From Pseudobdellovibrionaceae bacterium (GTDB lineage: Bacteria > Bdellovibrionota > Bdellovibrionia > Bdellovibrionales > UBA1609), in the NCBI GenBank assembly GCA_030591685.1, contig JAUVAX010000002.1:1-64000 (forward strand): a stretch of DNA of 64,000 nt, written 5' to 3'. This document shows, piece by piece, positions 19,630 to 24,267 of this stretch. How positions within the stretch are numbered: the stretch's first letter is position 1; each line of letters begins with the position of its first letter. The position numbers and the translations under genes are program-made. The notes beneath the pieces were generated by a model. That model made no database searches. It worked only from the letters and a program-made list of their open reading frames with translations, and had not been told where the DNA came from.

Positions 19630-20268
19630 TTGAGAACAATAGCCGATTATAAAAGCATTATATTAGCCTACACCGTTGTGATTATGGCCTTCGTTATTCA
19701 GGCCTGTGGCCGTAACCTGTCCCCTGAGGAGCCGTGTAACTTTGTACAAACAAAGCAGCTGCAAAGAGTCTCGTGGGAGCATAATACGCCTGCAAAGCTC
19801 TATATAGACGAGTCAGTCCCAAGGGAGTATTGGGAAACCATACAAAAATCAGCAGAAGTTTGGAATACATTAGCCCGAAAGACGATTATTGAGGTCTACC
19901 CTAATAGCGGCAGAGCCTCAAATATGGAGGTGGCTGATAACCGATCTATCATATATATGAAAGAGGAGTGGGAGGCCAATAAACCAGAGGAACAGGCCAA
20001 AACTCAGGTGCGCTGGAGAGGGAGCCAAATTATGGAGGCCGATATTTTTTTAAACGGTGCCATTTATGACTTTTCAATTCTAGGTGACACTCCTGATGAC
20101 GGGGTTGATCTAGAGAGTTTAATGATCCATGAGATGGGTCATGTTTTGGGGTTGAATCATTTTAGTGACCCCGAAACAGTCATGTTTAAAACCCTTAAAA
20201 AGGGACAGGAGAGGCGAGACTTTTCAAAAAGCCATGAGGAGTACAACTCTTTAAAATGTGAGTATTGA
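19630..20268 (+). CDS. Metzincin-type metalloprotease lipoprotein
   Basis: A 212-residue lipoprotein: the signal ends at Cys26 (FVIQAC) followed by Gly. The zinc site HEMGHVLGLNH (167-177) is the metzincin HExxHxxGxxH motif, and Met185 in TVMF is placed as the Met-turn, so this is a matrixin-like (M10/M12-type) endopeptidase catalytic domain without a recognisable propeptide. The start is TTG at 19630; GGAG (19616-19619) lies 10 bases before it. It follows the barrel/lipoprotein pair by 264 bp, so separate transcription is likely. It probably cleaves envelope or external proteins; the substrate is unknown. Confidence 0.85.
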   Translation: MRTIADYKSIILAYTVVIMAFVIQACGRNLSPEEPCNFVQTKQLQRVSWEHNTPAKLYIDESVPREYWETIQKSAEVWNTLARKTIIEVYPNSGRASNMEVADNRSIIYMKEEWEANKPEEQAKTQVRWRGSQIMEADIFLNGAIYDFSILGDTPDDGVDLESLMIHEMGHVLGLNHFSDPETVMFKTLKKGQERRDFSKSHEEYNSLKCEY

Positions 20269-20366: not shown

Positions 20367-20411
20367 GTATAAACAACCAAACAAAAGGATTTTAGGTTGC
20401 AGGAGAAGAGC

Positions 20412-20666
20412 ATGAGAACAAAGGAACAACAAAACACCCCCTCGATAGCACCACTACAAAGTGTTCGTGAGCCTTTGATGATCCACCATCAAAAAAGAGA
20501 GTATATCGAAGTTCCAGGGTCCTCTTCTGCAGATGTTGATGTGCTGGCTCAATTTAAAGCCAACATAAAACAGCTCGCTGATTCTCAGGCCCGAATGGGG
20601 TTTATGCTCAAAGAAGTTGTAAGCCTCGGTGACCGATCACTTTTTGATACCGAAACGCACTCATAG
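20412..20666 (+). CDS. Small soluble protein of unknown function
   Basis: An 84-residue product without signal peptide or membrane helix. A polar, Gln/Pro-containing N-terminus is followed by a likely helix (about 48-75, DVLAQFKANIKQLADSQARM). Not recognised. The ATG at 20412 is chosen because AGGAG sits 7 bases before it; an in-frame TTG at 20397 would add five residues without a ribosome site. A perfect palindrome lies upstream. It could be an adaptor or DNA-associated protein, but nothing proves this. Confidence 0.5.
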   Translation: MRTKEQQNTPSIAPLQSVREPLMIHHQKREYIEVPGSSSADVDVLAQFKANIKQLADSQARMGFMLKEVVSLGDRSLFDTETHS

Positions 20667-20758: not shown

Positions 20759-22375
20759 TTATTTTTTAATGCTACTTGATACATGAAACCCAACTTTAAA
20801 GTCAGTATCAGGGCCTGAGGATCCAATTTTTGGTATGGAGATTTTTAACTTACCGTCCTCATAGTGGCGACTGATTAGTTTTTCACTCACTGGGGAGTCG
20901 AGTTTGATCTCTTCTCTAAAGGTCTCATAGTTGTTGGCACTGAGTGAGCGATTTTTTGTAGAGAGCTTTTCGCTGAAACTTCTCTTTGAGCTCACCATGA
21001 TTTTATTGCCCTTAACATTAACGCTAACATTGTCTTTTTCGTACTCTGGGATTTCGATTTCAAAAAAATAGGCTTTTGGTGACTCTGTAAGGGTGTTAGG
21101 GGTTGATTTAACAGAGTAAAAGGGGTCGTCTTTGGCCTCACTATGGGGGAAGAGCTCTTTAGTCATGGATTGCTTCTGCTCAACCGCTTTATGTATAAAT
21201 CGCTCTCGTTGACCTTTAAGGGACCCTGTAAAGACTTTGTCGTTTTCATTAAAAGATTTTTGATACTCTTGTTTTTGATGACTCAATGATTTTTTATAAG
21301 TCTTATCATTGTCGGCCATCTTTTTTTGATTTGTACTCTGTGCCTGTGCCTGCTGGTCGGCATGAGTCTTTCTTTGCTCTTTTAACTCATTGTTATTTCG
21401 AACCTGATTGTGTTCATATTTTTTTTGAAAATCTGTTTGTTGCCCACTTAATTTTGAGTCTCCGAGTTTGTGAGACCTCTTGATTTCTTCTCGGTACTGG
21501 GCCCTTATTTTTTTTAAGCTGCGGACATTTTTTTTATTCTCAGATTCAAATTGAGATTGGTGAGTTTTCTTTAAATCAGAAATATTGTGATCATTTTGTT
21601 GTTGCAAAAGAACCTCTTGTTCTTTTGTTTGATCCCTAAGCTTATTGAGGTCATAGTTTGACTTCTGTCTTTCAAGTTCCATATGCTTATTGCTAGACTG
21701 CTGAATAGTTTCAAGTTGAGATTTTGATTTTTGATTAGACTTAAGCAAAGTCTCATTATTAGTTTTTTGTTGTTTACTAATTTTAGCCTGATGAGACGTT
21801 GTCATGTCATTGAGTTCTTTATTTAAACTATTTTGAGTTTTCAGTTGTTCTTGTTGTGACTCTCTGTGTATTTTTCTGATATTAGTATTGTGACTCTCGC
21901 GGGTTTCTTTTTGTTTCTTAAGACTCTGTTTTTGGGCTTCAACAGTGTTCTCTTTGTAGGCACTTATTATTTTAGCCTCTCTTTTGCCGGTGACCTCTAT
22001 TTGATGATCTATATTTTTTTTAACAGTTTGGTAAGCCTCTTTTTGCTGGCGTATTTTACTAGCGTTGCCCTCTTTTAGATTATTGTGCTCGCGACGATTT
22101 TTAATATTCTCTTGAAATATTTTTGTGGACTGCTTCTCTTGAAGGTCTTTTATTTTTTCACGACTTTGACGGCTAATATGTGAAATGGCAGCATCGTTAG
22201 TTTCTTTGATTTTATGAATGCGCTCTTTATGCTGCCCTTTTATGTTTTTAATTTGATCTTCATTTTGTTCGACGAGTTGCTTTTTTTGTTTTTTATACTT
22301 GCTTTGCAAATCATGCAGCTCATTGCGGTTGTCTTGCATTTTTTGCTGAACGGGTGTGGACACTGTGCTCTCCAA
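20759..22375 (-). CDS. Long coiled-coil protein with a C-terminal alpha-crystallin (Hsp20) domain
   Basis: A 538-residue protein with no signal peptide. Residues 1 to about 395 are almost pure Lys/Glu/Gln/Asn-rich coiled coil with irregular repeats such as KIKETNDAAI, REHNNLKEG and KSLSHQKQEY. Residues about 430-525 match the alpha-crystallin domain: FFEIEIPEYEKDNVSVNVKGNKIMVSSKR, a central FREEIKLDSPV, and YEDGKLKISIPK. Small heat-shock proteins are normally 140-180 residues with short N arms, so this is a strongly enlarged fusion. A filament-tethered chaperone or cytoskeletal role is possible but unproven. Flanking genes give no functional hint. Confidence 0.75.
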   Translation of the reverse strand: MESTVSTPVQQKMQDNRNELHDLQSKYKKQKKQLVEQNEDQIKNIKGQHKERIHKIKETNDAAISHISRQSREKIKDLQEKQSTKIFQENIKNRREHNNLKEGNASKIRQQKEAYQTVKKNIDHQIEVTGKREAKIISAYKENTVEAQKQSLKKQKETRESHNTNIRKIHRESQQEQLKTQNSLNKELNDMTTSHQAKISKQQKTNNETLLKSNQKSKSQLETIQQSSNKHMELERQKSNYDLNKLRDQTKEQEVLLQQQNDHNISDLKKTHQSQFESENKKNVRSLKKIRAQYREEIKRSHKLGDSKLSGQQTDFQKKYEHNQVRNNNELKEQRKTHADQQAQAQSTNQKKMADNDKTYKKSLSHQKQEYQKSFNENDKVFTGSLKGQRERFIHKAVEQKQSMTKELFPHSEAKDDPFYSVKSTPNTLTESPKAYFFEIEIPEYEKDNVSVNVKGNKIMVSSKRSFSEKLSTKNRSLSANNYETFREEIKLDSPVSEKLISRHYEDGKLKISIPKIGSSGPDTDFKVGFHVSSSIKK

Positions 22376-22450: not shown

Positions 22451-22486
22451 GGACTTTAAAACTAGGCAAAAAATGCCCTAGAGTCC
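22451..22486 (-). repeat. Interrupted hairpin overlapping the 3-prime end of a small gene
   Basis: GGACT (22451-22455) pairs with AGTCC (22482-22486), and an inner CTAGGCA pairs with TGCC-CTAG with one bulged base. It covers the stop codon of the small exported protein gene. There is no T run on the minus strand, so it is a doubtful terminator. Confidence 0.35.
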
Positions 22487-22756
22487 GTTTATAGGCTTTA
22501 TTATGGGGTTCGGGTTGGGGCAGATTTTTTTATAGTAACTGGAGTTATTATAACAATTCCAGCTATCGACGAGTTGGATGGTCTCCCCAGTGTTGAGAGG
22601 GTAGTACTCAGGGTACTGAAGGTGGTCTAGGGTTGAGATGAAAGGTTTTTGGAGCTTTTTTTTATCGCTATTTATCAACAACTCATAGGCTCTGTAATCA
22701 GAAAAACCAAATTCAACACTAAAGGCCAGGGCGACTAATATTTTTAATATGAACAT
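22478..22756 (-). CDS. Small exported protein of unknown function
   Basis: A 92-residue product with a short signal-like N-terminus (FILKILVALAFSVEFGFS). The mature part is Tyr/Asn-rich, contains DSWNCYNNSSYYKKICPNPNP with two cysteines that could form a disulfide, and has no known motif. There is no clear ribosome site before the ATG, so confidence is limited. It lies between the coiled-coil/Hsp20 gene and the next small gene, on the same strand. Confidence 0.4.
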   Translation of the reverse strand: MFILKILVALAFSVEFGFSDYRAYELLINSDKKKLQKPFISTLDHLQYPEYYPLNTGETIQLVDSWNCYNNSSYYKKICPNPNPIIKPINGL

Positions 22757-22972: not shown

Positions 22973-23281
22973 TTAATGCTCATAGTTTGAGGCCATAAGG
23001 ACTGTGTTGTCTACAATATGAAAGTAAGCCCGCAAAAGTAGTTCATAGGATTCTTGATCTAAAGAGGAGAGGAAAACTTTTTTTTCTGAAAAGGTGCTGT
23101 TTTCGATGAGTTTATTGAAGAGATCCTGGATTCGACCTATTTTATGGCCTTCAAAGAGGTTGAGCTCCTCAGTTGGGATTTTTAAAATATTAGCTATATG
23201 TTCGCGATCAAAGAGTAAGTGAATACCGTTTAATGACTGAGTCAGTAATAGTTCAATTTGTTTTAGGTGTTGCTCTTCCAT
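22973..23281 (-). CDS. Small soluble protein of unknown function
   Basis: A 102-residue helical, acidic protein without cysteines or export signal; not recognised. The regular heptad-like leucine spacing (KQIELLLTQSLNGIHLLF, then LFNKLIENSTFSEKKVFLSSLDQESYELLLRAYF) suggests a compact helical bundle. A 10-bp palindrome ATGTCGACAT (23321-23330) and a hairpin AGGCAT/ATGCCT (23342-23358) lie in the 155-bp divergent gap upstream, which it shares with the acidic protein gene. Confidence 0.55.
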   Translation of the reverse strand: MEEQHLKQIELLLTQSLNGIHLLFDREHIANILKIPTEELNLFEGHKIGRIQDLFNKLIENSTFSEKKVFLSSLDQESYELLLRAYFHIVDNTVLMASNYEH

Positions 23282-23436: not shown

Positions 23437-24267
23437 ATGGCAAAACCAACCATAAGTAAGAGTAAAATAGTCATTGATGCTGACAAGGGTTTAACTTTTA
23501 AGTCTGAAGATGAGTTATTTAAACACTTTAAGCCTGAAATTGATGGGCTTGAGGATCAATATTTTAAATGGAAGCGTAAGAATGATATTTTAGATGAGAG
23601 CTTTGACCAGTATGAGGGCTGTTTAGAGGAAACTCTAGAAGATCCCGATGAAATATGGCGAGATAATGAGCAACTCATAGACAAGCCAATCACTGTGTAC
23701 TTAAAAGTCTATGAAGATGAAGAGTCAGGCGAGGTGGAGTATTACATCGCCCTAACCTACTTAACTGAAGACATTCCAAGTTTTATATACTTACACTTTC
23801 CCACAAATGACCTAGACCTTGTGGAGCGTTATAGAGATGGTGAAATCGTATTCTCAAAAGCAATGAGTGATGCGCCAACAGGGGCCCTAGATGGGGATGC
23901 TCTCAGCGAGTCGGATGAGTTTGCTTTAGGCCTTTACGAGGCTATGCGAGTCCTTCAAAGCAGTACAGATATACCAGAGAGCGAGTATAGAGATTATGAA
24001 GACTACAGGGAGGAGACCGTAGAAGAGGCTGATGAAATTTGGCGTCGAGCCGACTCTATGGGCAACATGCTCGTCACTTTTATTAAGGATTTTTCTGAAG
24101 GTGAAGAGGGTGAACTTTTCTATTTAGCGGTAACTCTAGAGGACACCCCTTCAAACTCTCACGTATTGTTGTTTTCTTTTCCCACAACGGATAAGTCTCT
24201 AGTTGATAGGTATCGATCGGGTGAAAACCTACATGCTGAAGAAGTCGTTCAAGAGTCCAGTCATTAA
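23437..24267 (+). CDS. Acidic protein with two tandem copies of one domain
   Basis: A 276-residue, strongly acidic cytosolic protein that is an internal duplication. Copy 1 (about 57-138) and copy 2 (about 188-264) share YEDYREET.EEADEIWR, a run of beta strands with YYIAL/FYLAV, and end in FPT.D..LVDRYRSGE. The pattern, especially DEIW followed by short strands, resembles small barnase/RelE-like nuclease-fold (PBECR-type) domains, but I hold this weakly. It ends in a two-way hairpin with the convergent lipoprotein gene. No toxin or antitoxin partner is evident. Confidence 0.6.
   Translation: MAKPTISKSKIVIDADKGLTFKSEDELFKHFKPEIDGLEDQYFKWKRKNDILDESFDQYEGCLEETLEDPDEIWRDNEQLIDKPITVYLKVYEDEESGEVEYYIALTYLTEDIPSFIYLHFPTNDLDLVERYRDGEIVFSKAMSDAPTGALDGDALSESDEFALGLYEAMRVLQSSTDIPESEYRDYEDYREETVEEADEIWRRADSMGNMLVTFIKDFSEGEEGELFYLAVTLEDTPSNSHVLLFSFPTTDKSLVDRYRSGENLHAEEVVQESSH

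Follow-up and report, generated by a model that had tools for sequence, protein, structure and literature searches.

In the window, namely the whole stretch of 64,000 nucleotides analysed here, we find a single open frame of 538 amino acids on the minus strand, at 20759-22375; the strand had not been given in the earlier note on this DNA. The longest frame starts with TTG at 22375, however the gene probably starts with GTG at 22361-22363, since the starts of the family align to this codon (V5) and GGAGAG lies just upstream. So delimited, the gene spans 20759..22363 on the minus strand, and its product of 534 amino acids (62.7 kDa, pI 9.7) is referred to below as the rod-ACD protein, after its long rod and its C-terminal alpha-crystallin domain (ACD). 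The earlier note had allowed for a frameshifted or low-complexity frame. The frame is genuine, as orthologues at 17-30% identity keep it, with its exact length, over about 500 codons; with the hendecad phase also held among the orthologues, such an artefact is ruled out.

On the whole, the gene order around it is repeated in most of the genomes read, with c1 divergent from a co-directional series of c2, c3 and the rod-ACD gene, and with c8 and c4 downstream. The first gene of the operon is probably c2 (22973..23281, minus strand), which encodes a conserved and probably helical protein of 102 amino acids. Next to it, c3 (22478..22756, minus strand) encodes a small and probably secreted protein with a signal-peptide-like N-terminus, two invariant Cys and a motif YR...STLD..QY...W.C besides them; it has no database match. 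In most genomes c3 lies directly upstream of the rod-ACD gene in the same direction, while in some distant classes it is missing beside the gene, showing that it is not an obligate partner. The divergent neighbour c1 (23437..24267, plus strand), present in 283 of the 369 genomes searched in the phylum, carries two PBECR2 stretches in tandem (Pfam E=9.8e-15; barnase/RelE-like fold). Its AF2 model has a pLDDT of 86, and Foldseek gives a weak likeness to a contact-dependent-inhibition toxin fold, with a probability of 0.8 but E=0.07. In distant classes c1 has an N-terminal CxxC...FCxxxC stretch resembling a zinc knuckle, and a conserved C-terminal His usually ends both c1 and c2. Often kept downstream are the small convergent c8 (20397..20666, plus strand) and c4 (19630..20268, plus strand), a matrixin-type (M10) metallopeptidase (Pfam E=5.4e-10). 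The searches give no convincing match for c2, c3 and c8, no flagellar genes are recognised in the conserved neighbourhood, and none of the five neighbours gives the function of the rod-ACD protein.

An element CTTGCAA-N17-CACCAT is conserved before the operon in Bdellovibrio-type genomes, for example at 1203705-1203735 (locus L112) of the genome G072, which we take to be the B. bacteriovorus HD100 chromosome and which has its rod-ACD orthologue at 1201510-1202793 on the minus strand. In the same type of loci, a palindrome of the TGAC/GTCA type stands between c1 and c2. The element is rare, with only two exact copies in HD100, and it is not found before dnaK, groES or clpB, which speaks against a sigma-32 heat-shock promoter. 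No promoter element is common to the rod-ACD operon and these three genes, the heat-shock promoters of B. bacteriovorus being themselves not defined; Bd3314 has been judged unlikely as RpoH (PMC3464611).

The alpha-crystallin head and its tail

The earlier note had read an alpha-crystallin domain at the C-terminus, and this is borne out by both sequence and structure. Pfam HSP20 matches residues 431-517 (20825..21085, minus strand) with E=1.6e-9 and 38.2 bits against a cut-off of 20.8, HspA and Hsp16.9 are among the sequence matches in PDB, and a profile built from the family matches HspA with E=1.5e-11. The AF2 model of the C-terminus is a beta domain of seven strands, for which all 50 of the PDB matches listed by Foldseek are ACDs of small heat-shock proteins (sHSPs), the best with E=5.3e-6 and a probability of 1.00. 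The head begins with a DPFY linker motif (residues 417-420; 21116..21127, minus strand), in which D417, F419 and Y420 are invariant in three alignments.

Behind the domain follows a tail of 21 residues (20762..20824, minus strand) without the I-x-I anchor. Most orthologues terminate at or just beyond the last ACD strand: the tail has at most 20 amino acids past this strand in 82 of 95 family members, and I-x-I/V is present in only four of the 95 tails. In the same genomes, the ordinary sHSPs mostly carry I-x-I/V at their ends, in motifs such as QISVH or QIEI. They also separate in a FastTree of the ACDs, where 20 of 21 ordinary sHSPs fall into one clade without rod-ACD members (support 0.93), the lone misplaced tip being a truncated fragment. 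In one distant family (L077-L088 and L111), the rod-ACD protein does not end after the ACD and has a tail with a conserved FPxNLP-like motif.

Known sHSPs (HSP20/alpha-crystallin, PF00011), such as Hsp16.5, wheat Hsp16.9 and bacterial HspA, thus have the same ACD fold and sequence, while the rod-ACD protein differs from them in its mass of 62.7 kDa, its ordered hendecad rod of about 400 residues, its missing I-x-I tail and its separate clade. Typical sHSPs are of low molecular weight, and their N-terminal region is for the most part unstructured (PMC8155344), unlike the present protein of 534 amino acids, in which the N-terminal ~400 residues are predicted as helix. The departure from known sHSPs, which had been claimed on the ground of their short N arms, stands and extends to the tail.

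The hendecad rod and its length

The rod (residues 12-408; 21152..22342, minus strand) reads as a continuous hendecad coiled coil, which would be about 59 nm long if fully helical, at 0.15 nm per residue. Proline is absent from residue 9 to 409. In the AF2 model, run as a monomer with a pTM of 0.25, the rod forms two helices (12-264 and 278-408) with a gap of low confidence at 265-277. Since neither the alignment nor the hendecad phase shows an interruption there, we take this break for a by-product of modelling one chain alone.

Averaged across 41 orthologues, hydrophobicity and conservation have a period of 3.66-3.68 in every quarter of the rod, compared with 11/3 = 3.667 for hendecads. In 21 gap-free sequences the power is 43 at 3.66, where the maximum of 500 shuffles is 9.7, and only 0.23 at the heptad period of 3.5, which rules out an ordinary heptad coil. 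The phase is nearly constant, drifting by only about 0.7 residue over about 380 residues. Measured singly, 101 of 105 rods, including those from distant classes, peak at 3.62-3.71. The coiled coil of about 395 residues described in the earlier note is thus borne out as a long helix, with the correction that the coil is hendecad (period 3.66) and not an ordinary heptad one. Hendecads give very little supercoiling (PMC9858780), therefore the rod should be nearly straight. It is highly polar and charged, and its hydrophobic stripe is narrow, with one of 11 positions strongly hydrophobic (75%) and two weaker. The charges were also considered as a sign of staggered filaments; their periodicity peaks only at 5.4-5.5 residues, that is, half a hendecad, which gives no support to it.

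Between two anchors the length of the rod can be followed through the family. The N-terminal one is the motif GxAAINHI, here NDAAISHI (residues 60-67; 22175..22198, minus strand), in which A62 and H66 are each conserved in 85% of the 41 orthologues; the C-terminal one is DPFY. From H66 to D417, not one insertion or deletion occurs over 351 rod residues in 21 orthologues, whose mean rod identity is 18.9%. Without alignment, 31 proteins have the two motifs 351 residues apart and 21 have them 256 apart, this second set being mostly from Bdellovibrio-type genomes. Among the rarer spacings, 340, 318 and 307 each lie a multiple of 11 below 351, and 245 is 256 minus 11, while 253, 291, 63, 70 and 53 fit no whole turns, some of them perhaps being false motif hits. 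The length of the rod, measured mainly in two length classes of one order, is thus genetically fixed, at about 59 nm in the species of the window and about 45 nm in B. bacteriovorus.

Distribution and relation to flagellin

We then present an overall view of the gene in Bdellovibrionota. With ordinary sHSPs counted in, the window protein as query has matches in 87 of 99 relatives, and the family profile in 330 of the 369 genomes searched in the phylum. Several families and classes have rod-ACD proteins of about 360-565 amino acids, and the distant members still exceed the Pfam HSP20 cut-off. Some genera have short forms of 229-286 amino acids (L059, L063, L064, L070 and L071), in which most of the rod is gone. 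A first scan of contigs with a single protein query gave no match, and A1, a broad alignment, proved too divergent for use as a query. Two degenerate motifs, searched against a collection of 84,980 species genomes, give 24 confirmed loci, all in Bdellovibrionota and including B. bacteriovorus kdesi; the scan is limited by its patterns and does not prove absence elsewhere. The complete, single-contig genome G053, which is presumably Pseudobdellovibrio exovorus JSS, has ordinary sHSPs only, while other members of its genus keep the short form.

The architecture had been supposed to be rare or undescribed. Within the phylum it is not rare: the search for it, which the earlier note had proposed, finds it across Bdellovibrionota including B. 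bacteriovorus, conserved and alongside ordinary sHSPs. In the Bdellovibrio literature searched we found no description of the protein, nor any experiment on its localisation, expression or mutant. Interpolation places the orthologue of B. bacteriovorus near Bd1270, its distance from dnaK (Bd1298) being about 26 kb; Bd1167, a crescentin-like coiled-coil gene (PMC2797640), is a different gene mapping elsewhere.

In the two families tested, the presence of the gene goes with that of flagellin, the sole motility gene scored. At a completeness of at least 90%, the rod-ACD gene in its full or short form is present in 22 of 22 flagellin-positive and 0 of 9 flagellin-negative genomes of family f1 (Fisher p=5e-8), and in 68 of 73 and 0 of 4 respectively in family f12 of another class (p=9e-5), the tests ignoring shared ancestry, with independent losses possibly as few as two or three. 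For f12 a family-specific profile was used; the listed matches were judged by hand for presence or absence. The neighbour c1 shows no significant tracking of flagellin (p=0.06 in f1 and 0.50 in f12) and is retained by most genomes that lost the rod-ACD gene. Five f12 genomes are flagellin-positive yet without the gene, showing that it is not needed for flagellation as such. Genome size is confounded with the loss in f1, where all genomes of this completeness without the gene are at most 2.4 Mb, and less so in f12, where three of the four losers have 2.4-2.9 Mb but the gene is retained in flagellated genomes of 2.6-2.8 Mb; size alone therefore does not explain the loss. We read the association as linking the gene with a motile state and not as proof of a flagellar part. 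In a check of the pilus with PF13681, the control matched nowhere.

A possible role in swimming cells

To us the rod-ACD protein resembles a structural scaffold in swimming cells more than it does an ordinary heat-shock protein. We tentatively propose, at a likelihood only just short of even, a cytoplasmic rod of fixed length whose ACD head dimerises and which serves flagellated cells as a scaffold or spacer. Here we infer the parallel dimer, the cytoplasmic site, the capture of a partner by the ACD, the scaffold or spacer function and the flagellar or polar link. Parallel chains would come together in a hendecad coiled coil, nearly straight and of set length, and the C-terminal ACD, a domain which normally dimerises in sHSPs, would be the head that binds a partner or client. 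Without the I-x-I tail, the canonical anchor by which one ACD joins another in building a cage would be unusable; for this reason a rod, a spacer or one subunit of a lattice or filament is expected, and not a spherical holdase. The cells that the protein serves would be flagellated ones (attack-phase-like), and its site there possibly the flagellar or polar apparatus. The filament or cell-pole scaffold suggested in the earlier note may be right, and a structural role in flagellated cells is the better guess, given that the rod keeps its length so strictly and that the flagellin-negative genomes lack the gene. That the protein is a phylum-specific cytoskeletal or ruler protein of predatory bacteria, whose ACD and hendecad rod of fixed length scaffold the flagellar pole or some other structure of swimming cells, we consider rather unlikely.

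The main rival to the scaffold is an ATP-independent chaperone, a holdase or sequestrase whose hydrophilic rod would stand in for the usual disordered N-terminal arm and keep captured unfolded proteins soluble or spaced, by analogy with yeast Hsp42, whose long N-terminal region organises aggregates. The ACD is genuine, the well-studied ACD proteins of the sHSP type are chaperones, the polar and charged character of the rod would suit such an arm, and the resident ordinary sHSPs could co-assemble with it. A solubilising arm, however, should tolerate insertions and deletions, and the 21 orthologues have none over 351 residues; the missing I-x-I tail, a promoter sharing no element with dnaK, groES and clpB of B. 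bacteriovorus, and the association with flagellin also speak against a chaperone, which we hold to be doubtful. Much less probable is a membrane-bound sHSP, whose rod would lie on lipid as an amphipathic 11-mer helix in the manner of apolipoprotein A-I or alpha-synuclein. Apolipoprotein A-I does match the family profile over the rod (E ~1e-7), probably through the 11-residue period which it has in common with the rod-ACD protein and with ATP synthase subunit b; the same profile also matches the latter weakly, and this is a hendecad coiled coil. The rod-ACD protein shares no domain with either of these two, and its rod lacks the broad non-polar face of lipid-binding 11-mer helices, the narrow stripe being like that of a coiled coil; this and the fixed length argue against lipid binding, as helices on a surface need no exact length. 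A structural role is preferred over both of these readings because neither a disordered arm nor one lying on lipid needs an exact length.

The flagellar part of the proposal, not its scaffold part, competes with the view that the association with flagellin is incidental, the gene and the flagellum having been lost together with a change of lifestyle or genome streamlining, and the protein acting elsewhere, e.g. in cell shape, in the attack-phase cytoplasm or in predation. We give this view a substantial chance, though below an even one. The small genomes of the f1 losers, the flagellated genomes without the gene and the neighbourhood without recognised flagellar genes agree with it, while the overlap in size between losers and keepers in f12 and the retention of the adjoining c1 by most losers do not.

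To our knowledge, the ACD is hardly known except at the core of small chaperones that form cages. Here a phylum including the model predator B. bacteriovorus bears it on a rigid rod, without the cage-building tail and with a length that in many lineages has not shifted by even one residue, which would make it an ACD recruited for structure. The structural reading is directly testable in B. bacteriovorus, a tractable host, and if the flagellar association holds, the protein would be a new candidate among the components that make up the motile predator.

Among known systems, the FilP/Scy-type coiled-coil proteins of Streptomyces (DivIVA-like) also form long cytoplasmic rods rich in hendecads (PMC9858780). 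The rod-ACD protein differs from them in its rod, which is very polar rather than alanine-cored, in its ACD head and in its fixed length, and Pfam finds no DivIVA domain in it. In intermediate filament proteins, especially lamins, a coiled-coil rod whose length is strictly kept and falls into discrete classes is followed by a beta-sandwich domain. The rod-ACD protein likewise combines a length-classed rod with a beta domain; this likeness is an analogy only, with no homology claimed, as its rod is hendecad rather than heptad and its head is an ACD rather than a lamin tail domain.
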